Shown piece by piece: positions 8,502 to 47,602 of a DNA stretch of 64,000 nucleotides (its first letter is position 1; each line of letters begins with the position of its first letter). Source of the stretch: Gemmatimonadetes bacterium SCN 70-22 (GTDB lineage: Bacteria; Gemmatimonadota; Gemmatimonadetes; Gemmatimonadales; Gemmatimonadaceae); NCBI GenBank assembly GCA_001724275.1, contig MEDZ01000006.1, forward strand, positions 1-64,000, written 5' to 3'. The notes beneath the pieces are model-generated. The model saw nothing but the letters and a program-made list of their open reading frames with translations. It was not told the DNA's origin and ran no database searches. A program made the position numbers and the translations under genes.

Positions 8502-8549
8502 GACGGTCTCCAGTTGGCAACGGGGAAGGGTTTCAGTCAGGTCGTGCGC

Positions 8550-9047: not shown

Positions 9048-9087
9048 GACGTCCTCCGGTCGACTGAGTTGCACTCCATGCGAAGGG

Positions 9088-9118
9088 AGTGTACAAATTG
9101 AAGTCGACTTTAGGTCAA
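9088..9118 (-). promoter_or_regulatory. MerR-type promoter with 19-bp spacer and dyad
   Basis: On the minus strand, TTGACC (9118-9113) and TACACT (9093-9088) are separated by exactly 19 bp instead of the usual 17. The spacer contains the perfect palindrome AAGTCGACTT (plus strand 9101-9110). This over-long spacer with a central dyad is the hallmark of promoters untwisted by MerR-family activators. It drives the DUF2938 gene, while the regulator gene starts 9 bp away on the other strand. Confidence 0.75.
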
Positions 9119-9127
9119 GGAGGCGGG

Positions 9128-9535
9128 ATGGACATCGGCGAGGTGGCGCGGCGGACGGGAGTGCCGGCGTCGGCGCTGCGCTACTACGAGAAGAAGGGGC
9201 TGATCCGCTCCGTCGGCCGGACGGGGCTGCGCCGCACCTTCGATGATGGGGTGCTCGAGCGGCTCGCCTTGATCGCGCTGGGGCAGTCGGCCGGCCTCAC
9301 GCTCGACGAGATCGCGCGGATGTTCGCGGCCGATGGCTCCCCTCGCGTGGACCGTGCGCTGCTCGCCGCGAGGGCGGACCAGATCGACGCGCGCATCCGC
9401 CAGATGACCGCGATGCGCGACGGCCTGCGGCACGCCGCTGCCTGCCGCGCCGCAGACCACATGGCATGCCCGAAGTTCCGCCGCCTGCTGGGACTCGCCG
9501 CGTCCAGGCGCCGGACGAGCGCGCGCGAGCCTTAG
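9128..9535 (+). CDS. MerR-family transcriptional regulator
   Basis: A 135-residue regulator whose N-terminus (MDIGEVARRTGVPASALRYY) is the standard MerR helix-turn-helix. It is followed by the EKKGLI wing and the second helix pair (FDDGVLERLALIALGQ, GLTLDEIARMF). A coiled-coil dimer helix spans about 75-110. The C-terminal effector part is short and carries CRAADHMACP, a Cys-x6-Cys pair seen in a common MerR subgroup whose inducers are mostly unknown. AAGGAGG lies 4-10 bases before ATG 9128; the in-frame ATG at 9089 falls inside the promoter and is rejected. The divergent 19-bp-spacer promoter at 9088-9118 is almost certainly its binding site. It probably activates DUF2938-DUF2798 and represses itself. 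Confidence 0.88.
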   Translation: MDIGEVARRTGVPASALRYYEKKGLIRSVGRTGLRRTFDDGVLERLALIALGQSAGLTLDEIARMFAADGSPRVDRALLAARADQIDARIRQMTAMRDGLRHAAACRAADHMACPKFRRLLGLAASRRRTSAREP

Positions 9536-9593
9536 GCGGGGGTCACGCGCGAGTCAGTCGAACAGCGCTGAACGTTGCAGCGCAACGCTTCCC

Positions 9594-10076
9594 TCACTCG
9601 CCGCCCTTCGCCCGCTCGCGCTCTCGCCGGCGCACTGCGAGCAACTCCGCGCACTCCTTCGCCAGGATCCCGCCGTGCACCTCGGGAGGGAGCGTCCCAG
9701 GAAACGCCGTGACGTCCGCGAGCAACGGCCACGTGCCGCACGCTGCGCCGACGGCGCCGGCAACGGTGCCGTAGACCACACGCGCGATGCCGGTGCGCCG
9801 GATGACGTAGGCACAGAGCACGCACGGCTCCACGGTCGTGTACAGTGTGGCCCCGGCGAGGTGGAGCGACCCGCTGGCCGTGCATGCCTCGCGTACGGCC
9901 TCGACCTCGGCGTGGGCACTGGGGTCGAGGCGCTCGCGGGTCCGCTCGCGCCCCGCGCCGAGCACGCGACCGTCGCGCACCACGAGCGCTCCCACCGGAG
10001 TCTCGTGTGCCGCCAGCGCCTGGCGTGCCAGCTCCAGGGATCGCCGCATCCAGTAGTCGTCGTCCGTGAGGCTCAT
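9594..10076 (-). CDS. CMP/dCMP-type nucleoside deaminase
   Basis: This 160-residue zinc enzyme has the cytidine-deaminase fold. AHAEVEA (HAE, zinc His and proton-shuttle Glu) and TTVEPCVLCAYV (PCxxC, two zinc Cys) form a complete active site for hydrolytic deamination of a base or nucleoside. TadA usually has PCxMCxGA, while this has PCVLCAYV, so a free nucleoside or base substrate is at least as likely as tRNA. The start at ATG 10076 lies 4 bp after the stop of the TonB-type receptor gene, which points to co-transcription. A start at 10106 would run into the receptor gene and is rejected. The C-terminus ends in an Arg/Lys/Glu-rich tail. Confidence 0.8.
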   Translation of the reverse strand: MSLTDDDYWMRRSLELARQALAAHETPVGALVVRDGRVLGAGRERTRERLDPSAHAEVEAVREACTASGSLHLAGATLYTTVEPCVLCAYVIRRTGIARVVYGTVAGAVGAACGTWPLLADVTAFPGTLPPEVHGGILAKECAELLAVRRRERERAKGGE

Positions 10077-10080
10077 TCGG

Positions 10081-12498
10081 CTAGAACTTCCAGTTGTAGC
10101 CCACACGAATGACCTGCGTCTCCAGGTAGTCCGTGCTGACGAGGCGAAAGTTGGTGCCGCGGATGGTACGCTCGACCTGGTTGGTGTTGAGCAGATCGGT
10201 GGCGTTCACGACGATCTCGCCCCTCCCTCGCAGAACGCTCTTCTTCGCGCCGGCGTCGAGGAGGTAGCGGCTCCCCATGCGCCCCTGCGGGAAGAGATCG
10301 GGGGCGAGGTAGATGTTGGAGAGCTGCAACTGCCAGTCGCGTGGAAGGGTGAGCGTCGCGTTGAGCTTGACGTTGCCCGATGTGAGCTGCTCGCGCGACG
10401 CCGTGTACGTTACCGGGACCGGGTAGCGGTTCACGACCGAGAACGCGTCGATGATGCGGCGGTAGACGTTGGCATTGGCGTTGAGCGAGAGCTGCGCCCC
10501 GACCAACTGCTGCCAGACCACTTCGCCCCCAGTGCTCCAGCTGCGCCCGGCGTTCTGGAAGACGTTGTACAGGAGCACGCTGCCAGGAGGCTGCGTGGCG
10601 ATGCGGGTGATCGTGCCGTCGACGATGCGGTGATAGGCGGCGGTGTACAGGCTCCCCGTTGCCCAGCTCGTCTTGTAGCCGAGTTCCATGGAGGTGGCAT
10701 ACTGCGGCTGGAGCCCGGGGTTGCCGACCTTGATCAGCTCCGGCTCGTCGTACTTGGGGAAGATGCGGATGTCGACCTCATTGGGGCGATCGACGCGCCG
10801 GTTGAAGAAGAGCGACAGCTTGTTGGCGTCGTCGAACTTCCAGGCGGCGCGCAGGTTGGGGAACGGCCGGAAATACCGATAGCCGTCGCTCTTGTAGGTG
10901 TTATGGCCCGGGTTGACGTCGTAGTCGACGTGCACGGCCTCGATGCGGACTCCCCCTTCGAGCTCCACGTGCTCGCTCTCGAAGACGTAGTTGCCGTACA
11001 CGGCGGGAATGGTCTCGCGGTAGGTCGCCCAGCCGCCGGCTCCCGTGTCGATGGGAGAGTTCTGGCCCGGGAAGAAGCGCATGTTCACCGGGATGGAGCG
11101 GTAGCGCCCCTTGAACCCCGCCTCCAGACGCCCCTGCCGGAGCGGCTTGACGTAGTCGGCGTTGAGGTCCACGACGTGCTCGTCGGAGAGCAGCTTGAAC
11201 GCGTCGCGCCCCGTGAAGGAAGGGAGCGTGTTGGTGAAGAAGTACTGCTCGTCCTCGCGGTGGAAGGAGTAATTGCTGGTGAAGGTCAGCGTGTGCCCGG
11301 CCTGCGGGAACCTGTGCACCAGCGAGGCGGTGCCGAACGCGGTGTACTTGACCTCGTCCTCCAGGAACTGCCACAGGCGCAAGCGGGTCTGCAACGTCTG
11401 GTCGAAGTACGGGTTGTCGCCGTAGTCGAGGATCTTCTCGCGGTTGAACAGCCCGGCGACGTGGAGCGTGTTGCGCTCATCGATGGCGTGGTCCACCCCC
11501 GCGTTGAGGGTGGCGTAGTCGGTGCGGCGGTTGCGCTTGACCTGTTGGACGATGACGGTGCCGTCGTCGTAGGTGCGGGTGGCGAACTCGTTCTTGTTGA
11601 GCGTCGGGGAATAGAGCCAGTCGGCCTGCAGGAAGGAGTTGGTCTTGCCGTTGCGGTAGTTGACGCCGACCGAGGGGTTGAACTTGGGCGTGCCCTGGTA
11701 CTGTGGGCGGATGGTGGGGAGGTTCGCCTTCTTCTCCCACAGCGCGCCCGCACCGCCCATCACGCCCAGCTTGCCGTTGAAGCCGCGCTGTTCCTCCTTG
11801 CGGAAAACGAGGTTGATGATACCGGCGCTGGCGTTGGCATCGAACTTGGCCGACGGATTGTTGATGACGTCGATGCGCTCGAGCGCCGACGCGGGGAGGT
11901 TGTCCAGGCCGGCTTGCGAGCCGAAGCCGGTGAGTGCGGTCTGCTTGCCGTCGATGAGGACGACGACCTTGTCGCTGCCGCGGAGGAGAATCTTGCCGTC
12001 CTGTCCGACGGTCACCCCCGGCACGGCGCTCATGGCCTGGAGGACGGAACCGCCCGACTGACTGATGTTGTCGGCGACGGTGAAGCTCTTGCGGTCCATG
12101 GCCGCGGAGACGGCATCGGCGCTCCCCGTGACGACGACGCCGGCCAGCGCCTGCGGCGACCGGGTCATCGCGATGGGGCCGAGGTCGAGGAAGGGACTCA
12201 GCTCACCGATCAGGACGCGCTGTCGGAGGGGCTGGTAGCCGATCGACCGGGCCACCAGGACGTATACCCCCTTCTTGAGCGCCGCGAAGGTGAAGGCGCC
12301 CTCCTGGTCGGTCAGCCCTCCTGCGACGAACGCGCTGTCCTTCTCCGCCACGAGCTGAAGCGAGAGGTAGGGGAGCGGCGCCTTCGACTCGGCGTCCTGG
12401 AGTCTGCCCGAGAGGGTGACGCCCGACGGCGTCTGGGCGGCAACGGCTAGCGGGAGGCAGAGCGAGCAGAGAAACCAACGAAGGACGCGGAGTGGCAC
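10081..12498 (-). CDS. TonB-dependent receptor-like outer-membrane barrel
   Basis: This protein of about 805 residues starts, by my reading, at the GTG at 12498 (VPLRVLRWFLCSLCLPLAVAAQ, a good signal peptide). No Met lies between it and a distant ATG at 12774 whose following residues look non-coding, and no ribosome site is visible. Residues about 28-105 are a carboxypeptidase-regulatory-like domain. About 115-230 is the plug domain (VLQAMSAVPGVTVG, LLRGSDKVVVLIDG, LERIDVINNPSAKFDA). The rest is a beta barrel of the OMP_b-brl_2 type, ending in an aromatic residue (VGYNWKF) as outer-membrane barrels do. Such receptors import large or scarce ligands using TonB energy; the ligand here is unknown. 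The deaminase gene follows after 4 bp. The region 12499-12792 holds the divergent start region shared with a lipoprotein gene. Confidence 0.85.
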   Translation of the reverse strand: MPLRVLRWFLCSLCLPLAVAAQTPSGVTLSGRLQDAESKAPLPYLSLQLVAEKDSAFVAGGLTDQEGAFTFAALKKGVYVLVARSIGYQPLRQRVLIGELSPFLDLGPIAMTRSPQALAGVVVTGSADAVSAAMDRKSFTVADNISQSGGSVLQAMSAVPGVTVGQDGKILLRGSDKVVVLIDGKQTALTGFGSQAGLDNLPASALERIDVINNPSAKFDANASAGIINLVFRKEEQRGFNGKLGVMGGAGALWEKKANLPTIRPQYQGTPKFNPSVGVNYRNGKTNSFLQADWLYSPTLNKNEFATRTYDDGTVIVQQVKRNRRTDYATLNAGVDHAIDERNTLHVAGLFNREKILDYGDNPYFDQTLQTRLRLWQFLEDEVKYTAFGTASLVHRFPQAGHTLTFTSNYSFHREDEQYFFTNTLPSFTGRDAFKLLSDEHVVDLNADYVKPLRQGRLEAGFKGRYRSIPVNMRFFPGQNSPIDTGAGGWATYRETIPAVYGNYVFESEHVELEGGVRIEAVHVDYDVNPGHNTYKSDGYRYFRPFPNLRAAWKFDDANKLSLFFNRRVDRPNEVDIRIFPKYDEPELIKVGNPGLQPQYATSMELGYKTSWATGSLYTAAYHRIVDGTITRIATQPPGSVLLYNVFQNAGRSWSTGGEVVWQQLVGAQLSLNANANVYRRIIDAFSVVNRYPVPVTYTASREQLTSGNVKLNATLTLPRDWQLQLSNIYLAPDLFPQGRMGSRYLLDAGAKKSVLRGRGEIVVNATDLLNTNQVERTIRGTNFRLVSTDYLETQVIRVGYNWKF

Positions 12499-12792
12499 GG
12501 TACGGGGAAGGGTTGGGCTCGAGGCGTGTATGGAGAACGCCCGTGTGAGGTCCGTCGGGGCGCATCGCGGTGCGCTGGCAAGTTCGCGGGGCGTCGCAGG
12601 GGCGACAAGCGGGTGCGGGATGGGCGGTCGCCGGGGTGCCGGATGGCGAGCGCCCCTCGTGGCATGGGACGCGAAGGGGGCTCCGTCGAACCGCTCGGAA
12701 GGCGTGATGCGGAACTTGACACCCCAGGCCGCGTGGCGGGAATTGGGGGCGTCCCAGCCCCGGAGTCTCGTCATGGTGATGCGTTCGTGCCG

Positions 12793-14013
12793 ATGCCCCG
12801 CATTCCGCTAACGGCGTGCGTCGCGGCGGCCGCGCTGGCCGCGTCGCTCGGGGCATGTGGTTCGCGCGACGAGACGCTCACGCGACGGATCCACGCGCAC
12901 CCGAGTATGCCACTCGACGCCACGTTGCGGCTCGCGATTGGGGCCGAAGCCGATACCAGTGAGCCCGCCGCACTACTGGCGGGCGTCGGCAACGCGATCA
13001 TCGACCAGGGGGAGCATCTCGCGATCGTGGATGGCGGCAGCAGCTCCATTCGCCTGTTCGATGCGCGCGGGCGATTCGTGCGGTCGGTGGGTCGGGACGG
13101 GAGCGGTCCGGGCGAATTCCGCCTCCCGACATGGATTGGAGGGTGCTGGGGAGGGGGCTATGCCGCGTGGGACTTCGGCCGGAAGGTCGTGTACTACGAC
13201 TCCCTGTGGAACTATCGCGACGAGGTGCCCATCCCTGCGGCGGTGACGTCCGCGAGGCCGCTGGCTTGCCTCACGGGCGGTGTCATCGTCGCGACCGTGG
13301 AGACGGGAGGTCGGGTCCCCGAAGGAGGTGGGCTCGTGCGGCTGCCCACGTCGGTCCTGCGCATCCGCCCTCGCGAAGGACGTGTGGATACGATCGCCAC
13401 CTTCGCCGGGACCGAGTACTTCTTCTCGCGCCGGTCACCCATCTTCCTCGACGTCCCCCTCGGGCGCGCGACTCGGGTGGCCGTGCGGTTGCAGGACGTC
13501 GTCGTGGCGAGCACCGACAGCACCACGTTGCACGTGCTCTCGTTGAACGGCGCGCCGGTTACCCAGTGGCCGCTGGGGCTCACGCGGCGTCACGCGAGCC
13601 TGGACGATCAGCGGCGGGCGTTCGAGGAGCGGCTGGAGGCGTTGCAGCTCCTGCGCACGCGCCGCATGCTGCGCCCCCTGCTGGAGGAACTGCCGCGTGT
13701 CGATCAGTTCCCCTACTTCGAGACCCTGGTGACGGATGACAGCGCGCGCATCTGGATCAAGACCTACGATGGCGCGGGGACGCCGTGGCGCGTGTGGCAG
13801 GTCGTCGGCGACCGCGGAGGCGTGCGCGCGACCGTACGCCTCCCTGCCAAGGCGCAGGTGACGACGATCGCGCAGGGCTGCATCGTCGCCATCGAGCGCG
13901 ACTCCGTGGGAACGGAGCGCGTGCGCGTGTACGGGATGCGCACGGGGGAGAAGGATGGCCTGATGGCCCCGTGCCCGCTCGGTCTTACCGCCCTCCCTTC
14001 GTCGACTGGATGA
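12793..14013 (+). CDS. Lipoprotein with six-bladed propeller-like fold
   Basis: The 406-residue protein begins at ATG 12793 with a lipoprotein signal (CVAAAALAASLGAC, Cys19). From about residue 50 it shows the repeats of 6-bladed (NHL-like) propellers: HLAIVDGGSSSIRLFDARGRFVRSVGRDGSGPGEF is a typical first blade in size and content, with the GxGPGEF turn widely seen in this class. Later blades are less regular. No catalytic motif is evident. The 3' end overlaps by 29 bp the convergent S10 peptidase gene (13985-15502), so the two transcripts are antisense at their ends. The ORF start at 12526 would overlap the receptor's divergent promoter and hide the signal peptide. Confidence 0.7.
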   Translation: MPRIPLTACVAAAALAASLGACGSRDETLTRRIHAHPSMPLDATLRLAIGAEADTSEPAALLAGVGNAIIDQGEHLAIVDGGSSSIRLFDARGRFVRSVGRDGSGPGEFRLPTWIGGCWGGGYAAWDFGRKVVYYDSLWNYRDEVPIPAAVTSARPLACLTGGVIVATVETGGRVPEGGGLVRLPTSVLRIRPREGRVDTIATFAGTEYFFSRRSPIFLDVPLGRATRVAVRLQDVVVASTDSTTLHVLSLNGAPVTQWPLGLTRRHASLDDQRRAFEERLEALQLLRTRRMLRPLLEELPRVDQFPYFETLVTDDSARIWIKTYDGAGTPWRVWQVVGDRGGVRATVRLPAKAQVTTIAQGCIVAIERDSVGTERVRVYGMRTGEKDGLMAPCPLGLTALPSSTG

Positions 14014-36578: not shown

Positions 36579-38588
36579 TCAGCCCTCCTGTGGGGCGGCA
36601 AGGGTGAAGTGGAAGGTGGAGCCCGCGCCTGGCTGTGAATCCACCCAGATCCGCCCGCCGTGGCGCTCCACGATCTTCTTGCAGATGGCGAGTCCGATTC
36701 CCGTTCCCGGGTACTCGTCGCGCCCGTGGAGCCGCTGGAAGATCACGAAGATGCGGTCGAAGTACTGCGGCTCGATCCCGATGCCGTGGTCTCGCACGCT
36801 GATGACCCACTCCGCCCCCTCGCGGCGCGCGCCGACCTCGATGCGCGGCGCCGTGGGTCCCGCGAACTTCAGCGCGTTGCCGATCAGGTTGGCGAAGAGC
36901 TGCTCCAGCTGTCGCGCGTCCCCGCGCACCACCGGGAGGGGGGCGCGCGTGACCGTGGCACCCGATTCCTCGAGCGCGAGCTTGAGGTCGTCGATTGCCC
37001 GGTCGAGCACCTCGTCGGCCGGGACGGGGACGAGCTCGACCCCGTGGCTCCCCACGCGCGAGAGCGTCAGGAGGTCGTCGACCATGCGCTGCATCCGCCG
37101 CGCGCCGTCGACCACGAAGGCCATGAACTCCCGGCCGTCGGCGTCGAACCGGTCGCCGTAGCGGCGCTCCAGCAGCTGCACGTAGCTGGCCACGGTGCGG
37201 AGCGGCTCCTGGAGGTCGTGGGAGGCGACGTAGGCGAAGCGCTGCAGTTCGTCGTTGGACCGCTTCAGCTCCCGCTCGGCGTCCTTGCGGGCACTGATGT
37301 CCACCACCGAGGTGACCACGTAGGATTGGCCGTTGCGCCTGACGGGATTGAGCCCGACCACCACCGGGAACTCGCTGCCGTCGCGCCGCCGGGCGAACAG
37401 GTCGCGGTCGGCCCCCATCTCGCGCCGCTCCAGCAGGTGCATCGCGTCCCGGCGCAGCCGGGGGTGCCCCGCCGCAAAACGCTCCGGGATGAGGCGCTCC
37501 ACCGGCTGCCCCAGCAGCTCCTCGCGCCCGTAGCCGAACAGGCGCTCGACCTCATGGTTCACGAAGACCATGCGCCCGTCGGCATCGACCATCACCACGC
37601 CATTCGGCGTCCCCTCGAGGATCGCCTCGAAGCGCGCCTCCGACTCCTGGAGCGCCCCCTCGATGGGACGCGTGACGCGCCGCAGGTACGTCCACCCCAG
37701 CGCGCCCACGAGCCCGATCAGGAGGACGGCCGCAATCCCGGCGTCCCGCAAGAATCGATGCGTGCGGGCCAGCACCTCGTCACGCGGAAACTCGGCGAGC
37801 ACCACCCACGGAATGCCGCCGAGTTCGCGGGCCATGGCCAGCTGGCCACCCGTGCCGGCGCGCACATACGACAGCAGCGTCGTGTCGCCCCGCACGGGCA
37901 CCGGCGGACCGGCGACGTGCGTGGCGAAGTCGGTCCACGTGCGGTTGTCGACGCTCCCCACGTACACCCGCGCCCCCTGCCCGACGAGCCGCGAGAGGCG
38001 GTCGCGCGTCGTCGCGCTCGAGGCGACCGGCTGACGCTGCACCACGAAGCCGACCTCCCGCCGCGCCTCGTCCATGACCGGGGCGAGGATCCCGTACTCG
38101 ACCGTGTCGCGCAGGATGAGCATCGGCGTGATGGCGCCGGCGCGTCGCCCCGTGGCCCGCCCCCGCCAGTCGCGCACCACGGAATCCGCGAGCGGCGGGC
38201 GCGGCGCCCCCGCCTGCAACACCCGGCGCCCCGCGCCGTCCCAGAGTTCGAGGCTCGAGTTGCGCTCGACGTCGGCCGCGTCGAGCAGTTCGCCAACTCC
38301 GGCGCTTTCGGGAGCCGTGGTGCGGCGCAGGTACTCCACCACCTCCGGGCGAGACGCGATGCGTTCGAGGGCGGCGGTCCGCGCGCGCCCGGACTGCTCG
38401 AACATGGCGGCAAGCTGCGTCGTGACGTCGCCCAGCCGCTGCCGCGCCGCGCCGATGGCTGCCCCACGCATCTCGGCAAATGCGAAGAGCGTGACTGCGG
38501 CGATGCCGACACCGAGCGCCGCGCCGACCGCCAGTCCAAGGCGTTGGTCTACCGAGAGGGATTGCCGGCGCATCAGCGCAGACTCCAT
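36579..38588 (-). CDS. Membrane sensor histidine kinase with extracytoplasmic sensor and PAS
   Basis: This 669-residue kinase has a TM helix at about 17-40 and a periplasmic sensor of about 260 residues (cache-like by length, not confirmed). A second TM lies near 308-328 (GIAAVLLIGLVGALGW), and a PAS domain at about 345-460 (ILEGTPNGVVMVDADGRMVF, RRDGSEFPVVVGLNPV). HisKA is RFAYVASHDLQEPLRTVASYV, with the phosphorylated His in the SHDLQEPLR form of the phytochrome-like class. The HATPase has NLIGNALKF, RDHGIGIEPQYFDRIF and GTGIGLAICKKIVERHGG. It leads the operon, followed by the receiver and the hybrid kinase. The AT-rich inverted repeat at 38642-38679 lies in its promoter region. Confidence 0.9.
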   Translation of the reverse strand: MESALMRRQSLSVDQRLGLAVGAALGVGIAAVTLFAFAEMRGAAIGAARQRLGDVTTQLAAMFEQSGRARTAALERIASRPEVVEYLRRTTAPESAGVGELLDAADVERNSSLELWDGAGRRVLQAGAPRPPLADSVVRDWRGRATGRRAGAITPMLILRDTVEYGILAPVMDEARREVGFVVQRQPVASSATTRDRLSRLVGQGARVYVGSVDNRTWTDFATHVAGPPVPVRGDTTLLSYVRAGTGGQLAMARELGGIPWVVLAEFPRDEVLARTHRFLRDAGIAAVLLIGLVGALGWTYLRRVTRPIEGALQESEARFEAILEGTPNGVVMVDADGRMVFVNHEVERLFGYGREELLGQPVERLIPERFAAGHPRLRRDAMHLLERREMGADRDLFARRRDGSEFPVVVGLNPVRRNGQSYVVTSVVDISARKDAERELKRSNDELQRFAYVASHDLQEPLRTVASYVQLLERRYGDRFDADGREFMAFVVDGARRMQRMVDDLLTLSRVGSHGVELVPVPADEVLDRAIDDLKLALEESGATVTRAPLPVVRGDARQLEQLFANLIGNALKFAGPTAPRIEVGARREGAEWVISVRDHGIGIEPQYFDRIFVIFQRLHGRDEYPGTGIGLAICKKIVERHGGRIWVDSQPGAGSTFHFTLAAPQEG

Positions 38589-38641
38589 TGCAGTTCGGGT
38601 CTCTCGTCGCCTGGGGCGGCAGCCGAGCCGACAGAGTCAAA

Positions 38642-38679
38642 ATGCCGCATTCGCTATCAATATATTATACGTGCGGCAT
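38642..38679. promoter_or_regulatory. AT-rich promoter region enclosed by an 8-bp inverted repeat
   Basis: ATGCCGCA (38642-38649) and TGCGGCAT (38672-38679) are perfect inverted repeats around a 22-bp AT-rich core. Read toward the kinase operon the core contains TATAAT (38668-38663) and a second TATATT. This is the most AT-rich spot for several kb, and the repeat could hold a dimeric regulator. Confidence 0.6.
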
Positions 38680-38730
38680 CGGCGTATCGTCACGCGAGAG
38701 CGCTGCGCCACGGGCCTGCCCGCCGGGTCG

Positions 38731-38820
38731 GTTGGCGGCCGTTAACGCCAGTTTGCAGCCGTTGGCAGGCGTTTGCAGCCGTCCGCACCCGTCCGCGCCC
38801 GTTGGCCCTCGGTGGCGCGC
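38731..38820 (+). repeat. Helically phased 10-bp degenerate repeat
   Basis: Nine consecutive 10-bp units start with G(T/G) at 38731, 38741, 38751 and so on; clear ones read GTTGGCGGCC, GTTTGCAGCC (twice), GTTGGCAGGC, GTCCGCACCC and GTCCGCGCCC. Consensus is about GTTNGCRGCC. One unit per helical turn places every copy on the same face of the DNA. Confidence 0.55.
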
Positions 38821-39316
38821 GTGCGTCGGCGGCGCGCCGGTGACGCCGGCACGTGGCCCTCTTCCCTCGGGCGGCGGGAAGGGGGCACGGACTTCCATGC
38901 GGCGAGTTCCCCACCCAGCCTCCCGCTCGCCTCTGCTGTCAGAAGTTAGTCAAAGTCGTGGCGTGACCACGGATCGGAAGGGAGCGCCATCCATCCCACG
39001 CGACACCGTCCCGTTTGTGGGGAGCAGCGATGCGAGCCGCGGGCGGCGCACGGGGACTTCGGCGCACTGGCGAGAAACGCTGAGCTTCCTTGAGACTTTA
39101 TCCGGTCCTGAGGTCAGCGACCAGCTCGCCGGCCAGCCTCGCGCGCCCACCCGGTTCCCCGGACGCGGAGGATCACGCGGCTCGCCTTCGTGCACCACCT
39201 CGCGAGGTCGCCCGCGTCAGCGACATTCACCTCCCGGCTCCCTTCCCCAGTCGCTCGCTGTTGCGTGGCTCGTACTTTGCAGCAGTCCCGGCGCGGCCAG
39301 GCGAGGAGCGAGGGCA
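38821..39316. other. Long leader region before the isoprenoid-linked operon
   Basis: There is no supported gene. A plus-strand frame is open from 38588 to 40006 without a stop, but the part before 39317 is Pro/Arg/Ser-rich with no domain. A possible promoter-like AT spot is CTTCCTTGAGACTTTATCC near 39087. AGGAG precedes ATG 39317 by 10 bases. Confidence 0.4.
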
Positions 39317-40006
39317 ATGGCGAGCGCGCCACACACCATCCGGTCCGTCGAGGAACTGCGAGCCCAGGTGCCCGCTATCCTCAAGCGACTGAATGCCGAC
39401 CAGTCCCTCCTGTTGGCGGCGGCGGCGAATCCGGTTCTCGCTCTCGAGGAACTGGGGTATCGCATCCCTAACGAGCTCCACCGTGAGCTGGACCACCGCA
39501 TCCGCTTCTCGGCCACCGAGCGAGAACGCCTGGCTACGCTCGTCGCCCGCATGCACGAGATCGCCACCGTCCCGTTCGATCCGGATGATCCCGCCGATCT
39601 CGAGCGTATCCTGTTCACGCGACTCGAGCTCCCCGAACTCGCGGCGTCGCCGGTGCGGATAGCTATCACGGGAGCAGCAGGCGCAACGGAGGGGGCGAAG
39701 GAGATGTCGTCGCGCCGCAGCGGCACGCGGGAGCAGTCGCAGAGCGGCCCCATGTCCATCGCGCCGACGATCCTGCAACACCGGCTCGCGGTGCGATACC
39801 ACGCCACGGCGGCGGGACCGGAGCCGGACGTGCTCCTGGCGCTCGCGGGAACGCACCCCATCGTCGAGCCCCTCCTGGAGTACCGCGCCATCGTCGCGCG
39901 CCACGCGCCGTTCGCGCCGCGCGCGCTGTACGAGCGTGTGCGCCGGGGCGCCATCGGTGGAGTCTCGCTCAAGCTGCGCGCCCGCCTCCATCGCCGGGAG
40001 GTGTGA
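39317..40006 (+). CDS. Unknown protein with NHLP/Nif11-leader-like helical start
   Basis: The 229-residue protein starts at ATG 39317 after AGGAG. Residues about 18-62 (ILKRLNADQSLLLAAAANP, then ALEELGYRIPNELHREL) resemble the NHLP/Nif11 leader-type helices of RiPP precursors and nitrile-hydratase-like proteins, which carry NPxxALEELG. The similarity is seen by eye only. Residues 63-110 are charged and helical. The last 70 residues (LQHRLAVRYHATAAGPEPDVLLALAGTHPIVEPL) look like a small separate domain, with a basic tail (LKLRARLHRREV). There is no signal peptide, TM helix or Cys-rich core peptide, so it is not an ordinary RiPP precursor. It is the first gene of a five-gene operon and ends 3 bp before the next ATG. 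Confidence 0.6.
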   Translation: MASAPHTIRSVEELRAQVPAILKRLNADQSLLLAAAANPVLALEELGYRIPNELHRELDHRIRFSATERERLATLVARMHEIATVPFDPDDPADLERILFTRLELPELAASPVRIAITGAAGATEGAKEMSSRRSGTREQSQSGPMSIAPTILQHRLAVRYHATAAGPEPDVLLALAGTHPIVEPLLEYRAIVARHAPFAPRALYERVRRGAIGGVSLKLRARLHRREV

Positions 40007-40009
40007 GCC

Positions 40010-43000
40010 ATGCCTGACCTGGGCGGCTTCGAGGTCGTGGGCGAACTTGCCGTCGCCACGCTGAACGAGATCCTCAAGGGGGCATGGGACAACAACATCG
40101 TTCCACACTCCGTGGACATCGCGGCGGGAACCGCCTTTGGCCCCTACCAGCTCGCCGACGGCGTCATCGACATCGCGCGCGATACCTTGCACCTGGACAT
40201 GGACGTCCCGGTCAACGGCGTGCGCATCACGGTGCCCGCCGTGTGCCAGGTCGAGATCGCCAACGCACCGATTCCCAGCGCGCGCTTCTTCGACCTGACC
40301 ACCGACGTCGTCGCACGCGTGCCGATCGGGGTGCTTCCCGGCACGATACACGTGGCGGCGCTGCTCGGCGGCATCCCCCGCTCCTCGGTCTCGGCGACGG
40401 TGACCAGTGGCGATCCGATCCCGGCCCTGACGTTGACGTCGGTCGCGGAGTTCGTGCACGCCAAGTATGCCGACGGCACCATTCCGCACACCGTGACGCA
40501 GAACGGCGTAGGGCTCGGTGTCTTCTCGGCCGATGCGTTCATCGAGCTGTTCGACGACGCCACGCATCCCACGCACGCGATCACCGTCACGCAACCGGCC
40601 CCCACGCAGGTGGTCGTGCGCATCCCGTTCCACCTGAAGCTTGCCAACCTATCGGCGGGGCTCTCGCCATGCGGTGTCGTCGGCAAGTTGGTGCTCACGA
40701 GCGACCTGGTCGTGGTGCCGGGGTCAGTGACCACGCATCTCGCCACGGCCGCGATCACGCTCGAGGACTATGCCCCCTCGCCGGCAAGCGACGCGCTCGG
40801 GAGCCATGACAGCGAGGGAAGCAACTACACGTTCAACAACACCGCGTCCGGAGGGCTGCTGGAGAATGCGGTCAAGGCACAGCTCACGGCCCGGGCCAAT
40901 GCGGTGAAGGCGGCGGTTGGCAACATGACCGTCCCGGTGCCAACGCTGGCGCAGATCGAGTCGTTCATCGCCGACCAGGCGCACGCGGCCATCACCGGCC
41001 GTGGGGACATTGGACTCTGGACGCCCACCCCTCCACCCGATGGTGGGGTGACGGTGACCGACGTCAGGCCGCTGGCGCTCACCGACGCGATCGCCTTCTG
41101 CCTGAACAATCCCGGGGGGAACACCGGCGCGATCACGAACTTCATTCCGCCGGCCCGCTCGTGCGCCATCGCCATCGACGGCGCCAAGGTCATTGCGCTC
41201 ATCCACGATCAGATCGACAAGCCGGAGGCCGAGGGGGGCTTCGGGGGAATCCCGCACACTTTCCACGACGTCGACGGCCACACGGCGCGGCTCACACGCC
41301 TGACGGCATCGCTGCGCTCGGGCTCGATCCATATAGAAGGCGATGTCACCGTCATCGACGCGATCGCCGACAGCATCGACGTGGACGCGTCGTTCGAGGC
41401 CGAAGTGGGGCTGGAATGGGTCGACCAGCCGGATGGGACGCAGATGCTGCGTCCCTTCGTGATCAGCCAGGATGTGGATCTCTCGCTCCTCGCCTGGATC
41501 CTGAGCTTCCTGCTGGGCTTCATCACGTTGGGTATCGTGGGGGGGATCATCGCCCTCGTCATCGTGGCGGTGGTGGAAGGGGTCGCGGAGAAGGTGGGCG
41601 GGGTCATCATCCGCGACGAGGTGACGGGGCAGGTGAAGGGGATCGGTGCGTGGCCACAGCAACTGGAGGGGATCGGCGATGTGACCGCCCGATTCGAGAA
41701 TCCGGTGCTGATCGATCCGCAGAGCGTGATGTTCCCGGACGCGTACGTCGTGACGGCAACCTTCGCGTCGGTCCCCGATGCCCTCGCGCAGGCGAATGGT
41801 CCGTACGTCGTGCCCGAGGGCGCCGAGGTGACATTCCAGGGCGGGCCACTTACGCCGAACACCACGTACTCATGGGCGTTCGGCGACGGCGCGGTCGCCC
41901 ACACGCGGGTGGCTACGCACCGCTACGCCGACAACGGACTCTACATCGCCAAGTTCACGACGGCCGTGAACGAAGTGGGGGGCGTCGTGACGCGGCACTT
42001 TGCCGCCGTACGCGTGGACAACGTAGCCGCCAGCGTCGATGCCGGAGCTCCACTGACCATCGACGAGGGTCAGGAGGTGGACTTCGTCGCCACCTTCACC
42101 GATCCGGGGTGGCCCGACACGCACACGGCAGTCTTCGACTTCGGCGACCGCCAGCTGCCCGCCATCGGGGTGGTACAGGAGAAGCACGACGCGCCGCTCG
42201 GCACCGGGACGGCCAGCGCCGCCCACGCGTACTGCGACAACGGGACATACACGGTGACCGTGCGCGTGATGGACGATGACGGCGGCGTGGGTGTGGACAC
42301 CCGGACAGTCACGGTCCGCAACGTGCCGCCGACGGTGGATGCAGGGGAGGACATGTTCGCGTACCGCTGCACACCGATCACGCTCGTCGCCCGCTTCACC
42401 GACCCCGGCTGGTGCGACACGCACACGGGGATCTGGGACTTCGGCGACTGCACGCCGGCGATACCGGCGACGGTGCGCGAGCGCCATGAACCACCCGCCG
42501 GGTGCGGGCTCGTGGCCGCGACGCATCGCTACGAGTGCTGCGGCGACTTCGTTGCGGCCGTGACGGTATCCGACGACGACGGCGGCGTAGGGCGCGATTC
42601 GCTGGTGGTACGCGTGGTGGACGTGGTGAACGGCGACTTCGAAGGGGGATTCCGGTCACTCGACGCGGGCCTGGTGGCGAATGGGTGGGAACCGTACGCC
42701 GTGGGGAAGGGGGCGGTCGCACGATTCGACGCCGACGAGTTTGTGGTGCACGCGGGACAGCGTGCGCAACGCGTGACGTGTGGAGGTGCGACAGCGCGTG
42801 CGGGGCTCATGCAACATGTCGGGGCCAATCGTGACTGGGATTACCAACTCGTCGCGTGGTTCCATGCGCGCGAGCATTCGGGGGCGCGTTACCGCCTCGG
42901 CATCGACCCGGCCGGGGGAACCAACCCTGATGGTGCGACCGTCGTATGGGGCGAATCCCGCGACGACCATCGCTGGACCGTCCTCGCGGTGCGCGCGACG

Positions 43001-43606
43001 GCGACGGCGCGACGGCTGACCATCTTTCTCGAGGCGTTCGTGGACGCGAATGCTACGAGGGAGGGGACGGCGTGGTTCGACGACGTGTCGCTACTACCGT
43101 ATCCCTGTCCCCTGGGCGACGCGCCCCCGTGTCGGCCGCCGCGTGAACGGGAGGTGTGCATCGACTGGCGGGAGGAGCCGAGGCCGCGTGTGATCGGCGT
43201 CACGTTCCGTGATCGGGGTTTCACGTTCACCTCCATCGGGCAGGATCCCCTTCGCATCGTCGTGTGGGGGCCCCCCGCGAACACCGGCAAGCTGCAGCTG
43301 CCGCGCAAGCAGATGGTGGTGGAGCTCCCGTACGCGGCGAGTACCGTGACGGCCCACGTCACGGCGAGCACATCCGTACCGATCGTCATGCGGGGAAGGA
43401 CCACTGGAGGGAACACGGAACCGGTGGCATCTTCGGGAGTCCAGGGGGCGATCGAAGCGCTGACGCTCCGCGGGACAGGCATTACGCAGTTGGAGTTCGC
43501 CGGGGGAGGCGGTGAGGGACTGCTGGTCGATCTCTGCATCGCCGACGCACAGCAAGGGACGGACGCGCCACCTGACACCACTCCGAGGGGAGCACGCCAT
43601 GGCTGA
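40010..43606 (+). CDS. Large PKD-domain protein without signal peptide, unknown function
   Basis: This 1198-residue protein has no N-terminal signal peptide. Residues 1-485 are beta-rich with regular amphipathic strands (ITVPAVCQVEIANAP, VVVRIPFHLKLANLSAG), reminiscent of two tandem lipid-binding (TULIP-like) modules; that is only an inference. Residues about 490-530 are a hydrophobic hairpin (LSLLAWILSFLLGFITLGIV, GGIIALVIVAVVEGVAEKVG). Three PKD-type Ig modules lie at about 598-670, 675-768 and 770-870 (YSWAFGDGA, AVFDFGD, GIWDFGD turns), the third richer in Cys. A carbohydrate-binding-like beta domain spans about 875-1030, and another beta sandwich ends the protein. Its stop overlaps the next gene by 8 bp. 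Context suggests a membrane-attached scaffold for an isoprenoid. Confidence 0.75.
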   Translation: MPDLGGFEVVGELAVATLNEILKGAWDNNIVPHSVDIAAGTAFGPYQLADGVIDIARDTLHLDMDVPVNGVRITVPAVCQVEIANAPIPSARFFDLTTDVVARVPIGVLPGTIHVAALLGGIPRSSVSATVTSGDPIPALTLTSVAEFVHAKYADGTIPHTVTQNGVGLGVFSADAFIELFDDATHPTHAITVTQPAPTQVVVRIPFHLKLANLSAGLSPCGVVGKLVLTSDLVVVPGSVTTHLATAAITLEDYAPSPASDALGSHDSEGSNYTFNNTASGGLLENAVKAQLTARANAVKAAVGNMTVPVPTLAQIESFIADQAHAAITGRGDIGLWTPTPPPDGGVTVTDVRPLALTDAIAFCLNNPGGNTGAITNFIPPARSCAIAIDGAKVIALIHDQIDKPEAEGGFGGIPHTFHDVDGHTARLTRLTASLRSGSIHIEGDVTVIDAIADSIDVDASFEAEVGLEWVDQPDGTQMLRPFVISQDVDLSLLAWILSFLLGFITLGIVGGIIALVIVAVVEGVAEKVGGVIIRDEVTGQVKGIGAWPQQLEGIGDVTARFENPVLIDPQSVMFPDAYVVTATFASVPDALAQANGPYVVPEGAEVTFQGGPLTPNTTYSWAFGDGAVAHTRVATHRYADNGLYIAKFTTAVNEVGGVVTRHFAAVRVDNVAASVDAGAPLTIDEGQEVDFVATFTDPGWPDTHTAVFDFGDRQLPAIGVVQEKHDAPLGTGTASAAHAYCDNGTYTVTVRVMDDDGGVGVDTRTVTVRNVPPTVDAGEDMFAYRCTPITLVARFTDPGWCDTHTGIWDFGDCTPAIPATVRERHEPPAGCGLVAATHRYECCGDFVAAVTVSDDDGGVGRDSLVVRVVDVVNGDFEGGFRSLDAGLVANGWEPYAVGKGAVARFDADEFVVHAGQRAQRVTCGGATARAGLMQHVGANRDWDYQLVAWFHAREHSGARYRLGIDPAGGTNPDGATVVWGESRDDHRWTVLAVRATATARRLTIFLEAFVDANATREGTAWFDDVSLLPYPCPLGDAPPCRPPREREVCIDWREEPRPRVIGVTFRDRGFTFTSIGQDPLRIVVWGPPANTGKLQLPRKQMVVELPYAASTVTAHVTASTSVPIVMRGRTTGGNTEPVASSGVQGAIEALTLRGTGITQLEFAGGGGEGLLVDLCIADAQQGTDAPPDTTPRGARHG

Positions 43607-43841
43607 CAACGGCACCACCACGATTCACATCGCGAGCTGGCCCAAGGAGCCGGCCGCCGTCAACATGTCGATGGACTCGGCGCTCACGCTCAAGTCGGAG
43701 GTGCCGTTATGCATCCGGCTGTGCGAACCGATCTGTGCGAAGAGCGACTACAGCATCGGCATCACCATCTTCGACCGTCCGGTCGCGACGATCGCCATCT
43801 CGGGCGTGACGCGCTTGTTCAACTGCGACGAGAAGCGGTAA
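43599..43841 (+). CDS. Small Cys-containing conserved-looking protein
   Basis: The 80-residue protein starts at ATG 43599, overlapping the PKD gene by 8 bp, and ends 3 bp before the GTG of the next gene, so it is translationally coupled on both sides. GAGGGGAG precedes the start. The N-terminal half is polar. The C-terminal half (PLCIRLCEPICAKSDYSIGI, TIFDRPVATIAISGVTRLFN) has a C-x3-C-x3-C group and a final Cys before DEKR. The sequence is compact, with alternating beta strands, like a small beta-sandwich or metal-binding module. It contains a rare TTA Leu codon outside the usual context. I do not recognise a family; no signal peptide is present. Confidence 0.6.
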   Translation: MADNGTTTIHIASWPKEPAAVNMSMDSALTLKSEVPLCIRLCEPICAKSDYSIGITIFDRPVATIAISGVTRLFNCDEKR

Positions 43842-43844
43842 TCC

Positions 43845-44708
43845 GTGGCGGCGCGGAAGAAGGCGAAGGCCGCGGCGCCCAAGGCACGACGGCGCAAGGC
43901 GCGACCGGCGAAACAGGTGGAGGAGGCTCCGGCTCCTCCGGCCAACGAGGACACAGCGATGAAGGCAGCCTCCCGCGATGCCGCGGCGTTCCGTGAATCG
44001 GCGGAACGGCTCGCGGGCCTCTCGAAGCGTGCCACACGGGCGGCGTCCGCGACGGCGTTGGGCGCGTCGCGCAGCGCGATGGCCGCGGCGCCCGCCGTGG
44101 TCGTCAAGGCGGCGACCATCCTCGAGGAGGAAATCGCTATCACGCTCGGCGCCGTGAAGCGAATCGAGCAGCGATTCATCGACGTTGATGCCATGCGCAA
44201 GCACGCTCCCGACGCGGTGATGGCCAAGTTCCGGCGTGACGCGCATGATGCCGTGGACATCATTCTCGACGTGCTCACCGCCGCCGCGCAGACCGTCGGG
44301 GCGCAGGCGGGGAGGTTCGTGAACGTCACGGCGGGGGCGTCCGCACCGTCGGCTGGGCAATCCGATGGGGCGCCGGCCGGGTTGCAGGTGCCGGCATTGC
44401 GCATCCCCGGCACGGTGACGGCCGGGAGGGCGGGGGTGGTGGCCATGGCGCTGGAGAATCCTTCGGATGTCGGCACCGCGAGCTTCACGCTGCACGCGTC
44501 GGACCTGGTGAGTGCGTCGGGCACGCGCATCGAGTCGCAGCACGTGGTGTTCACGCCGGCAAGCCTGAGCGTGGGGCCCCGTCAGGCTGGACGCGTGGAG
44601 GTGAGCGTCGCGGTCCCACCGGGGACGCCGGCCGGCACCTACGAAGGTCTCGTGCGGGCCACCCAGATGGAAAACCTGCGGGCCATGCTTGCGGTCGTCG
44701 TCGCGTAG
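43845..44708 (+). CDS. Phasin-like coiled protein with C-terminal Ig-like domain
   Basis: This 287-residue protein starts at a GTG (43845) 3 bp after the previous stop. Residues 1-30 are Lys/Arg/Ala-rich (KKAKAAAPKARRRKARP), as in polybasic DNA- or granule-binding tails. Residues about 40-155 are Ala-rich amphipathic helices (FRESAERLAGLSKRATRAAS, AATILEEEIAITLGAVKRIE) resembling phasins, which coat storage granules. Residues about 185-287 form an Ig-like domain (ALENPSDVGTASFTLHASDL, VSVAVPPGTPAGTYEGLVRA), similar to the domains appended to exported or surface proteins. No signal peptide is present. The combination is unusual; with the prenyl synthase directly downstream it could attach to a lipid or polyisoprenoid body, but this is inference. 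Confidence 0.6.
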   Translation: MAARKKAKAAAPKARRRKARPAKQVEEAPAPPANEDTAMKAASRDAAAFRESAERLAGLSKRATRAASATALGASRSAMAAAPAVVVKAATILEEEIAITLGAVKRIEQRFIDVDAMRKHAPDAVMAKFRRDAHDAVDIILDVLTAAAQTVGAQAGRFVNVTAGASAPSAGQSDGAPAGLQVPALRIPGTVTAGRAGVVAMALENPSDVGTASFTLHASDLVSASGTRIESQHVVFTPASLSVGPRQAGRVEVSVAVPPGTPAGTYEGLVRATQMENLRAMLAVVVA

Positions 44709-44775
44709 CGTGGGTACGCCGATTCTGGACAGCCCCGCGCGCTCGCGTGTCGCGACCCGGCGCCGGCGCAGGGCC

Positions 44776-45792
44776 ATGGTGGAGCGCTGGCTCGGCGAGT
44801 ACAAGCGAGAGACCATCGACGCCCTGCTGACCTACCTGCCCAATACCGAGCCGAGGCGGTATCTGTACGATTTGGTGCCGCAGTATCCCCTGCGGGCGGG
44901 GAAGGGGCTACGCCCCGGACTGTGCATGGCCACCTGTGCCGCCTTTGGCGGGAGGCGAGCATCCGCGCTCAACTCCGCCGTCGCGCTGGAGCTCTTCCAC
45001 AACGCCTTTCTCGTGCACGACGACGTGGAAGACGGCAGCCTGAATCGGCGCGGACTGCCCACGCTGGCCGCCGAGCACGGCCTTGCGATCGCCGTGAACG
45101 TGGGCGATGCGATGAATGTCCTGAGTATCGAGCCTCTCATGCGGAACCTCGAGGCGCTCGGCCCAGAGGTCACCTGGAAGGTGTTCTGCGAGATCCAGCA
45201 CATGGCCCGGCAGTCGGTGGAAGGACAGGCGATGGAGCTGGGTTGGGTGCGCGACAACGTCGTGGACCTGGCAGACGCCGACTACCTGCGCATGACCCTC
45301 AAGAAGACGTGCTGGTACACCTGCATTCACCCGTGCCGTATCGGCGCGATCGTCGCGAGCCGTGGGGCGATCGATGCGGACCGGTTCAACCGATTCGGCT
45401 ACTTCATGGGGGCGGCCTTCCAGATCCAGGATGACGTGCTCAACCTGGTGGCCGACGAGGCGAAGTATGGGAAGGAGATCAACGGCGACATCTGGGAAGG
45501 AAAGCGCACGCTGATGCTGATCCACCTGCTCGCCAACGCGACCAGCACGGAGCGCGAGCGGCTGCGGACCTTCCTGGCGACACCGCGCGTCGCACGCCGT
45601 GAACGCCAGGTAGCGTGGGTACGCGCGAGGATGGACGCCTACGGGAGTATTGCCCATGCGCGGGCGTGCGCGCACGAGCTCGCGGTGGCGGCGCTTTCCG
45701 AATTCCAGCTGGCATTTGCCGACGCGCCACCAACCCCCGAGAAGTCGTTCATCGAGGGGATCGTCCTCTACATGATCGAGCGCGAGCTGTAA
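44776..45792 (+). CDS. Polyprenyl (short-chain isoprenyl) diphosphate synthase
   Basis: This 338-residue all-helical enzyme condenses isopentenyl diphosphate onto an allylic primer in the cytoplasm. Both Asp-rich motifs are visible: VHDDVED (first) and FQIQDDVLNL (second, DDxxN rather than DDxxD). KGLRPGL (binding Lys/Arg) and GDIWEGKRTLMLIHLL are in place. NTEPRRYLYDLVPQYPLRAGKG is the typical start of one family branch. No aromatic residue decides chain length with confidence, so the product (C15-C20 or longer) is open. I chose ATG 44776; a GTG at 44710, one base after the previous stop, would add 22 residues and is also possible. It is the last gene of the operon and converges with the reductase gene. 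Confidence 0.88.
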   Translation: MVERWLGEYKRETIDALLTYLPNTEPRRYLYDLVPQYPLRAGKGLRPGLCMATCAAFGGRRASALNSAVALELFHNAFLVHDDVEDGSLNRRGLPTLAAEHGLAIAVNVGDAMNVLSIEPLMRNLEALGPEVTWKVFCEIQHMARQSVEGQAMELGWVRDNVVDLADADYLRMTLKKTCWYTCIHPCRIGAIVASRGAIDADRFNRFGYFMGAAFQIQDDVLNLVADEAKYGKEINGDIWEGKRTLMLIHLLANATSTERERLRTFLATPRVARRERQVAWVRARMDAYGSIAHARACAHELAVAALSEFQLAFADAPPTPEKSFIEGIVLYMIEREL

Positions 45793-45823
45793 CCCGGACT
45801 TTCGCGACAGCGCTGCGGCGCAG

Positions 45824-47386
45824 TCACGATGGCGGTGCGGGAAGGGTGAGACGCACCGCGCCTGGCGCCCCGGGGGCGGCGTGATCGCGTGGCGTCATCG
45901 CTCGCAGGTAGCTGCGAGTGGCCTCCGCCGCGAGCTCGCCGCCCTGCATCACGACAGCGGTGAGCCACGTCAGCAGCCCGGCCGGGTCGCGGGCCAGCGC
46001 CGCCGCCGCGTCGCGCACCACAGCGGCGCCCGAGCTGGTCCGGGTGAGCACTGCGCGCGGTCCCCGCAGCAGGGTCCAACCCGCGGCCAGGACGCCGGAG
46101 AAGAGGGCCTGATCGATCGTGCGCCCGATGATGTGCGGGCTGAGCGCGTGGTGAGACGGAATGAGTCCGGCCAGCACGGCGCCGCAGACGTCGGCATAGC
46201 GGGGGTCCACACGCGCGCGCGCCGCGATCACCTTGAGCAGTTGCAACCAGAGGGTGTTGAGATGCCGATTGCGGATGCACTCGACGATCAACCCGGCAAA
46301 GGCCATGTCGTAGCGCAACTCGCGGTTGACGCGGTCGGCATAGGGCTGCAGGGCGGCCGCCTCGCATGCGTCATGCGCCAGGCACGGCGCCGCGTGCTCC
46401 GCCGCCCAGCGCCCGCTGAGGAGGGCGTACTGGATCCCCTCGCCGTTGAGCGGATTGATGAAGCCCGCCGCGTCTCCGACGAGCATGATGCGGTCACCGA
46501 CGAGGGGGAGCGACGGATCGTAGGTGGACAGGGGCCAGCCGACGATCTTGCCCACGATGCGCGCCGCTCCCAGGCGCTGACGGAGCGCTGGGTCGCTCTC
46601 CACCAGGCGTAGCATCATGTCCCGCAGGTGGTCGGTCTGCGGGGGAAATGTCTCGAGGACCATCCCGACGCCCACATTGGCGATGCCCCTCCCCGTGGGA
46701 AAGAGCCAGTAGTATCCGGGGAAGCTCTCGGCCGAGAAGTAGAGATCCGACTGGTCCTCAGGGCCCGCGTCGCCCTCGTAGTAGGCGCGCACGGCGATGA
46801 TGCGCGAGGCATCCGGCGGTGGCGCGCCGCGCAGCGCGCGGGCGACCGTGGAGCTGCTGCCGTCGGCGCCAACGACCAGCCGCGCGGTGAGGGCACGTTC
46901 GCCGTCGGGCGTGCGGACGCGCACGGTGGCCACTGCGCCGCTGCTGTCCACGCCCAGCACGCTGGTGCGCTCGAGCACGCGTGCGCCGGCGTCGCGGGCC
47001 GCGCCGAGAATCCAGGCGTCGAGCTGGAGGCGGGGAATGCAGCGCCCATAGTCGGGGAGCCCGTCGAGCGCCGGCATCGGGCGGGCGATGAGGGGCTTGC
47101 CGTCGGCGTAGAGAGCGGCGCGACGGATGATGTTGGAGGCACGGTAGTCGGCGCGCGTGGTCACGCCTAACGCCGCCAGCTCCTCGAGCGCCACCGGCCC
47201 CACGAAGTCGCCGCAAACCTTGTCCCGAGGAAAGGCCTGACGGTCGAGCAGCAACACCTGCCACCCGGCGCGGGCCAGGTGTGCGGCCGCGGCCGCGCCA
47301 GACGGGCCGCCACCGACCACGATCACGTCGGAGTCGACGCGGGGCGCCAGGGTTATGCGCACCGCGCCGGCGGAGTTCGCGTGCAT
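45824..47386 (-). CDS. Geranylgeranyl-reductase-family flavoprotein
   Basis: The 520-residue FAD-dependent oxidoreductase has an N-terminal dinucleotide fold (VIVVGGGPSGAAAAAHLARAG, Gx(G)xxG). LDRQAFPRDKVCGDFVGP is the characteristic second motif of the geranylgeranyl-reductase/FixC branch, and VGDAAGFINPLNGEGIQYAL is the FAD-binding DG motif. Members reduce prenyl double bonds in lipids or quinones, or hydroxylate other substrates. An inserted and C-terminal region (about 380-520) is Ala-rich, without TM helices. Convergent to the prenyl synthase (stops at 45792 and 45824), it is not in its operon, but the pairing of a prenyl synthase with a GGR is typical of reduced-isoprenoid lipid pathways. 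ATG 47386 has AGGTGCG 4-10 bases upstream. Confidence 0.85.
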   Translation of the reverse strand: MHANSAGAVRITLAPRVDSDVIVVGGGPSGAAAAAHLARAGWQVLLLDRQAFPRDKVCGDFVGPVALEELAALGVTTRADYRASNIIRRAALYADGKPLIARPMPALDGLPDYGRCIPRLQLDAWILGAARDAGARVLERTSVLGVDSSGAVATVRVRTPDGERALTARLVVGADGSSSTVARALRGAPPPDASRIIAVRAYYEGDAGPEDQSDLYFSAESFPGYYWLFPTGRGIANVGVGMVLETFPPQTDHLRDMMLRLVESDPALRQRLGAARIVGKIVGWPLSTYDPSLPLVGDRIMLVGDAAGFINPLNGEGIQYALLSGRWAAEHAAPCLAHDACEAAALQPYADRVNRELRYDMAFAGLIVECIRNRHLNTLWLQLLKVIAARARVDPRYADVCGAVLAGLIPSHHALSPHIIGRTIDQALFSGVLAAGWTLLRGPRAVLTRTSSGAAVVRDAAAALARDPAGLLTWLTAVVMQGGELAAEATRSYLRAMTPRDHAAPGAPGAVRLTLPAPPS

Positions 47387-47602
47387 GAACGCACCTCGAG
47401 TCCAGTGAAGACCGCGCCTGCGGTTGCAGCACCCGAGGCGAGTTTAATGATGGCGTGCCCCGGCCGTCCAGCGTGGCCCGCCGGCACGCGGTGCCCGCGG
47501 CCCACACCCGGGTGGCGTCGAACTCGACCATTGCACGGAGCGAGACCACCCTGAGGGCGGTGCGGCGCCATGACGAGATCCCGCGTCACGGCCGGGTGCG
47601 TC

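Follow-up and report, generated by a model that had tools for sequence, protein, structure and literature searches.

Why should a prenyl diphosphate synthase gene close a tightly packed operon whose other members include a very large multidomain protein and a protein of only 80 residues? The question is raised by a 64,000-nucleotide stretch of the genome of Gemmatimonadetes bacterium SCN 70-22 (contig MEDZ01000006.1, positions 1 to 64,000), referred to here as the window, in which the open reading frames include five tightly packed, co-directional genes at positions 39317-45792. These genes, called g1 to g5, had been described in an earlier reading of the DNA letters alone (the sequence-only reading) as a coupled operon for making or storing a polyisoprenoid. 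The safest statement to be made from our analysis is that a predicted short-chain prenyl synthase (g5) is linked by its genes to scaffold-type proteins and to a putative carrier of the TULIP type (g2).

When g3 is used as a query against genome contigs, four loci are recovered, all of which carry complete g1-g5 in the same order; two (L034 and L035) are from Gemmatimonadaceae and two (L036 and L037) are from a single family of Bacteroidota. Because the complete set recurs in unchanged order at these further loci from two phyla, a chance arrangement is ruled out and the five-gene operon is confirmed. Identity between the phyla is 44% for g2, 62-65% for g5 and 27% for g1, which is the most rapidly evolving of the five (27-41% identity). 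Another Gemmatimonadota genome (G263) has g4, g5 and a geranylgeranyl reductase (GGR)-family gene at the end of a contig (L054). The operon is thus a real conserved unit, and it is rare. In an even draw of 395 Gemmatimonadota and 395 Bacteroidota genomes, a profile of g2 residues 1-586 detects it in two of the former and one of the latter, with one additional weak match (G471, E 6e-4, in a 92-amino-acid frame). Domain profiles were used for g2 because the whole protein recovers mostly unrelated PKD proteins.

Widespread occurrence of the first four genes without a prenyl synthase would speak against the proposed function, and no convincing copy of g1-g4 alone was found: searches with g4 in 210 Gemmatimonadota genomes and with g3 in 198 Bacteroidota genomes yielded no convincing case lacking a synthase of the g5 clade. 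A weak g3 match in G500 was not confirmed when its context was read, and a g4 match in G035, to another kind of protein, covers only the Ig-type C-terminal portion of g4; neither has a g5-clade synthase nearby. Nothing was found in plasmid searches with g3, g2 residues 1-586, the g2 C-terminal domain and a g4-g3 fusion described below (L067), and a scan of viral contigs gave no relative. In the two Bacteroidota loci, the operon has a divergent Band 7/SPFH gene upstream of it (L036 4389-5255, L037 4388-5254), a linkage that, within one family, is perhaps mere shared synteny.

The assignment of the fifth gene as a producer of an isoprenyl diphosphate stands, as a predicted activity. The g5 protein matches the Pfam polyprenyl synthetase family (PF00348) at 180 bits against a cut-off of 27, and has both Asp-rich motifs of trans-prenyl diphosphate synthases (HDDVED and QDDVLN). 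Since the genome holds two further prenyl synthases, one of which is IspA adjoining xse and dxs genes, g5 is an additional copy. A 17-sequence tree places g5 among 12 synthases that form a clade separate from the outgroups (99/99), with HNAFLVHDDVED and QDDxLNL as characteristic motifs; all members have Asn in place of the last Asp of the second motif. Nearly all retain Ala and Phe at -5 and -4, respectively, of the first motif. In a study of a type III geranylgeranyl diphosphate (GGPP) synthase, an aromatic residue at -4 is tied to farnesyl diphosphate (FPP) or mixed FPP/GGPP products (PMC9729869). The Ala and Phe residues of g5 suggest a C15/C20 chain, and argue against the long polyisoprenoid named in the sequence-only reading.

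Members of this clade occur in other settings. Plasmid-borne Ruegeria synthases lie beside a family 1 encapsulin and a DUF3237 protein, with a flavin adenine dinucleotide (FAD) oxidoreductase adjacent in one of two records, as annotated. In L057, which comes from the same genome (G013) as the L034 operon, a fused FAD oxidoreductase-synthase lies beside encapsulin and DUF3237, and a Kitasatospora synthase is preceded by a g4-like helical protein. Further members are found in L055 and L056, and some neighbours in the clade are DUF3237 or acetoacetate-decarboxylase-like proteins. A g4 profile independently matches proteins encoded next to g5-clade synthases in Ruegeria (3.8e-10), L056 (6.8e-7) and Kitasatospora (9.5e-7). 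In L067 (G501), which like L068 was found afterwards by profile search and is not among the 17 tree sequences, the g3 domain follows a g4-type helical segment in a single fused protein encoded just upstream of a g5-clade synthase.

The second line of evidence is the N-terminal region of g2, for which the sequence-only reading had proposed a lipid-binding fold as a check. An AlphaFold model of residues 1-586, built from five sequences, is of low confidence (mean predicted local distance difference test (pLDDT) score 50, predicted TM-score (pTM) 0.38). In a Foldseek search with it, all six matches with E < 0.001 are OrfX3, CETP and OrfX2 chains, followed by LBP, BPIFA1 and P47. The first 16 VIA rows are all TULIP proteins, with BPIFA1/SPLUNC1 the best (Z 9.5, over 150 residues), then Der p 7 (8.7), BPI (8.6), juvenile hormone binding protein (8.4) and YceB (8.4), and with latherin and OrfX3 also present. 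By fold, residues 1-485 are therefore placed among TULIP proteins on a model with a pLDDT of 50, and the resemblance to TULIP lipid carriers is supported, being credible through the concordance of distant TULIP families and not through any single score. A search of BFVD gave no match under 0.001. Neither g2 nor its L036 homologue matches OrfX/P47 or any TULIP family in Pfam at E values up to 1, and the N-terminal region has no sequence match to a solved structure. Residues 5-128 and 133-262 form a weak internal repeat (hhalign E ~0.002) with an IPH[ST] motif in register; a third repeat at residues 383-490 was considered and received no support from profile comparison. The coordinates of all features are given below.

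Features of the operon and its convergent neighbour (window positions; aa, amino acids)
Feature	Positions	Strand	Description and basis
g1	39317-40006	+	229 aa; helical accessory protein; open reading frame and translation, homologues in L034, L035, L036, L037
g1 residues 64-108	39506-39640	+	first DNA-polymerase-A thumb-like segment; Pfam DNA_pol_A, profile A3 against PDB
g1 residues ~170-197	39824-39907	+	second thumb-like segment (HPIVEPLLEYR); profile A3 aligned to Taq polymerase 516-543
g2	40010-43606	+	1198 aa, multidomain; open reading frame; homologues 44-64% identical
g2 residues 1-485	40010-41464	+	predicted TULIP-like lipid-binding region; AlphaFold model, Foldseek and VIA top rows
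g2 residues 487-529	41468-41596	+	hydrophobic helical segment (hairpin); Kyte-Doolittle, low-confidence model
g2 residues ~594-869	41789-42616	+	three PKD domains; Pfam PKD_4 3.9e-30, three stretches
g2 residues 874-1034	42629-43111	+	MAM/carbohydrate-binding-type domain; Pfam MAM
g2 residues 1046-1184	43145-43561	+	carbohydrate-binding-module-like beta-sandwich; homology to modelled Bacteroidota g3 C-terminus
g3	43599-43841	+	80 aa; four invariant Cys (38, 42, 46, 76)
g4	43845-44708	+	287 aa; basic N-terminus, helical segment, C-terminal NEW3-type Ig domain
g5	44710-45792	+	360 aa, most likely from GTG 44710; predicted short-chain trans-prenyl diphosphate synthase; PF00348, start, clade
GGR-family flavoprotein (FAD protein)	45824-47386	-	converges on g5; TIGR02032 above cut-off; accessory

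The hydrophobic hairpin and PKD domains recognised in the sequence-only reading are both borne out. The hairpin is the single strongly hydrophobic segment of g2, with a Kyte-Doolittle 19-residue maximum of 2.93 at residue 504, and the low-confidence model has a helix at 491-529. The Pfam MAM match that follows the PKD stretches is below the Pfam cut-off both in the L035 protein (8e-5) and in g2 of the window (0.025). A homologous copy of the g2 C-terminal domain extends Bacteroidota g3 at its C-terminus; the model of this g3 domain (pLDDT ~90) matches carbohydrate-binding modules at VIA Z 13.1 and 12.5. The C-terminal half of g2 has eight invariant Cys. For g3 itself, sequence and structure searches gave no fold, and its part of the model has a pLDDT under 60. 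The proposal that g4 is phasin-like is not upheld: three homologues give no Pfam phasin match up to E 1, and the protein instead combines a helical segment with an Ig domain of the NEW3 type (NPCBM_assoc, Pfam 2e-4 in the L036 homologue, below the cut-off).

The similarity of g1 to the thumb of family A DNA polymerases holds at the profile level: every listed row of profile A3 against the PDB is a family A polymerase (best E 6e-9), and the Pfam DNA_pol_A matches, all below the cut-off, are 0.0058 in the window and 6.9e-6 and 1.1e-5 in Bacteroidota. Only thumb segments match within the 229 residues, and palm, fingers and catalytic residues are not found. As g1 has no catalytic part, we read the thumb-like portion as a putative borrowed or convergent helical module. 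These DNA polymerase I thumb-like segments (39506-39907) occur outside any replication context.

The start of g5 is most likely the GTG at 44710, in frame and one base past the g4 stop, in place of the earlier call near 44776, which would open a 67-bp gap after g4. With this start, the intergenic spacings from g1 to g5 are 3, -8, 3 and 1 bp. GC content at third codon positions is 0.83-0.85 in g1, g2, g4 and g5, 0.91 in g3 and 0.88-0.94 in the neighbours tested; the slightly low values of four operon genes would fit gene transfer and alone are no proof of it. Rfam has no match within 38400-47600, and no promoter- or terminator-like site exceeds chance. About 700 bp without a convincing gene (38588-39317), also free of Rfam matches, separate a divergent histidine kinase from g1. 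An anti-phage defence system was considered and rejected, as PADLOC has no match for g1-g5 and only a weak generic flavoprotein match for the GGR-family protein.

That flavoprotein, whose end lies 31 bp from that of g5, scores 212.2 bits against a TIGR02032 cut-off of 158.8, which places it in the geranylgeranyl reductase family as the sequence-only reading had it. Relatives 57-60% identical converge on g5 in L034, L035 and L054. The two Bacteroidota carriers (G404 and G405) lack a GGR relative at E <= 1e-20, so that reduction of the product would be at most a Gemmatimonadota add-on; the "reduced" isoprenoid of the sequence-only reading is possible for that phylum and fails for Bacteroidota.

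What might such an operon do? The reading that we favour, tentatively, is that it encodes a dedicated assembly that makes and carries an isoprenoid, in which g2 would capture the product near a membrane or lipid surface. To judge by its family and motifs, g5 would extend an allylic diphosphate with isopentenyl diphosphate to a chain of C15-C20. The g4 and g3 proteins may be a scaffold holding the synthase, given that relatives have them fused together or adjoining g5. The folds suggest that the TULIP region of g2 could take up the hydrophobic product or a derived lipid, that the hydrophobic segment could attach to or dip into a membrane or lipid surface, and that the PKD and carbohydrate-binding-type domains could serve as a rigid outer arm or coat. 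In Gemmatimonadota, the GGR-family enzyme may saturate the chain. The idea of an isoprenoid system with dedicated binding proteins is thereby retained in part, through the conserved operon that always includes a prenyl synthase and the TULIP-like half of g2, and shorn of its phasin-like protein and its polyisoprenoid. Several points weigh against this reading. The TULIP model is of low confidence and its TM-scores are low, so the assignment depends on agreement between the top matches; PKD, MAM and carbohydrate-binding-type domains are usually extracellular and fit poorly with a cytoplasmic synthase scaffold; the Bacteroidota carriers, as noted, lack the reductase; and the operon includes no next enzyme, such as a prenyltransferase or terpene cyclase.

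The main rival starts from those same outer domains. It may be, although we consider it unlikely, that the proteins form an exported or released lipid-carrying surface complex, in which g2 leaves the cell without a signal peptide in the manner of OrfX/P47-type TULIP proteins, its PKD and carbohydrate-binding-type domains bind polysaccharide or another cell, and the synthase supplies the carried lipid. It is the chief rival because three PKD domains, MAM-like and carbohydrate-binding-module-like domains and conserved Cys (the eight in g2 and four in g3, which could form disulphides) suggest a location outside the cell, and the best fold matches of g2 include OrfX3, OrfX2 and P47. However, none of the five N-termini, read by eye without a signal-peptide predictor, looks like a signal peptide, no secretion gene is seen in or beside the operon, there is no toxin-like partner, and the encapsulin-linked relatives of g5 suggest the cytoplasm.

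Those relatives lend themselves to a different account, in which g1-g4 would replace the relatives' encapsulin as the shell or scaffold of the synthase, with little true lipid carriage. The nearest synthases outside the operon include ones adjoining family 1 encapsulin shell genes, and the best NCBIfam score of g5 is to the family 2 encapsulin cargo model (NF041169), at 172 bits far below the cut-off of 450. The operon itself, however, contains no encapsulin shell gene, g1-g4 match no encapsulin model or other shell family in Pfam and NCBIfam scans, and the TULIP region would be left without a role; we regard such a protein-coated compartment as quite improbable. It is more doubtful still that g5 merely serves ordinary isoprenoid synthesis and came to adjoin a surface-protein operon with which it has nothing to do. 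This would suit the abundance of prenyl synthases and the lack of any recognised pathway role for g1-g4, but in both phyla g5 closes the operon, g4-like proteins adjoin other members of its clade, and two more synthases are already present in the genome. Both of these accounts are less likely than capture by g2 or the surface complex.

Some clusters around g5-clade synthases deserve mention in their own right. One, comprising an adenylate/guanylate cyclase, a family 1 encapsulin, DUF3237, an amine-oxidase-type FAD oxidoreductase and the synthase, occurs in L057 (1808-9873), where the last two genes are fused, and on Ruegeria plasmids (L045 and L046, ~4833-13008); no published description of it was found. 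A second type, in Gemmatimonadota and Bacteroidota (L056 4205-10142, L068 5974-9674), combines the synthase with three other proteins: one of NEW3 type, one bearing a YHDHNWG motif and a small one encoded downstream. The latter two have no convincing Pfam match, and CrtC-like and SCP2-like identities for proteins of this cluster were not confirmed by Pfam. In L067 (6129-9356), which lacks a TULIP gene, the synthase follows the g4-g3 fusion and a protein of the Amidohydro_2 family that contains a long hydrophobic insert. It is conceivable, on rather speculative grounds, that there is a class of bacterial isoprenoid-handling machines, each making and packaging its own isoprenoid, in which one short-chain synthase clade and g3/g4-type scaffolds are partnered by a TULIP-PKD carrier, an encapsulin or another hydrophobic-ligand-binding protein.

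To our knowledge, few bacterial TULIP families have been recognised, their cargo is mostly unclear, and no cultured bacterium carries the operon. A TULIP protein with its own prenyl synthase in a conserved operon would name a likely ligand class that can be tested directly, and the presence of encapsulin shells beside synthases of this clade suggests a more general, so far undescribed strategy of confining isoprenoid synthesis to dedicated assemblies. We found no description of the operon in the literature, where subscription journals were thinly covered, so this is weak evidence of novelty. In the passages searched of a survey of bacterial TULIP proteins, the words "prenyl" and "operon" are absent and no such operon appears (PMC6791001), nor does one appear in those searched of an encapsulin survey (PMC8346489).

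Among known systems, the DNA polymerase family A thumb has two segments to which g1 aligns in order, but g1 differs from these enzymes in its length and in lacking their palm, fingers and catalytic motifs. The GGR-family protein resembles geranylgeranyl reductases in passing the TIGR02032 cut-off, and differs in being accessory, with no close relative in the Bacteroidota carriers. GGPP synthases of the Thermus/archaeal type and of type III share the DDxxD first motif with g5, whose best PDB match is the Thermus GGPP synthase 1wmw; g5 is unlike them in a second motif ending in Asn (DDxLN), in Phe at -4 and Ala at -5, and in the clade signature KKTCWYT...HPCRIG. The polyprenyl transferases linked to encapsulins, as family 2 cargo (PMC8346489) or in the family 1 clusters of Ruegeria and L057, are similar in that same-clade or related synthases are encoded beside assembly-forming proteins, whereas the operon here has no encapsulin. 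Closest in architecture to g2 residues 1-485, as modelled, is the TULIP superfamily (BPI/LBP/CETP, PLUNC, Takeout/JHBP, YceB and OrfX2/OrfX3/P47), with which they share repeated units that each run from a helix into long strands; g2 stands apart from it in having no Pfam TULIP sequence match, and in joining this region to PKD and carbohydrate-binding-type domains within the operon of a prenyl synthase.

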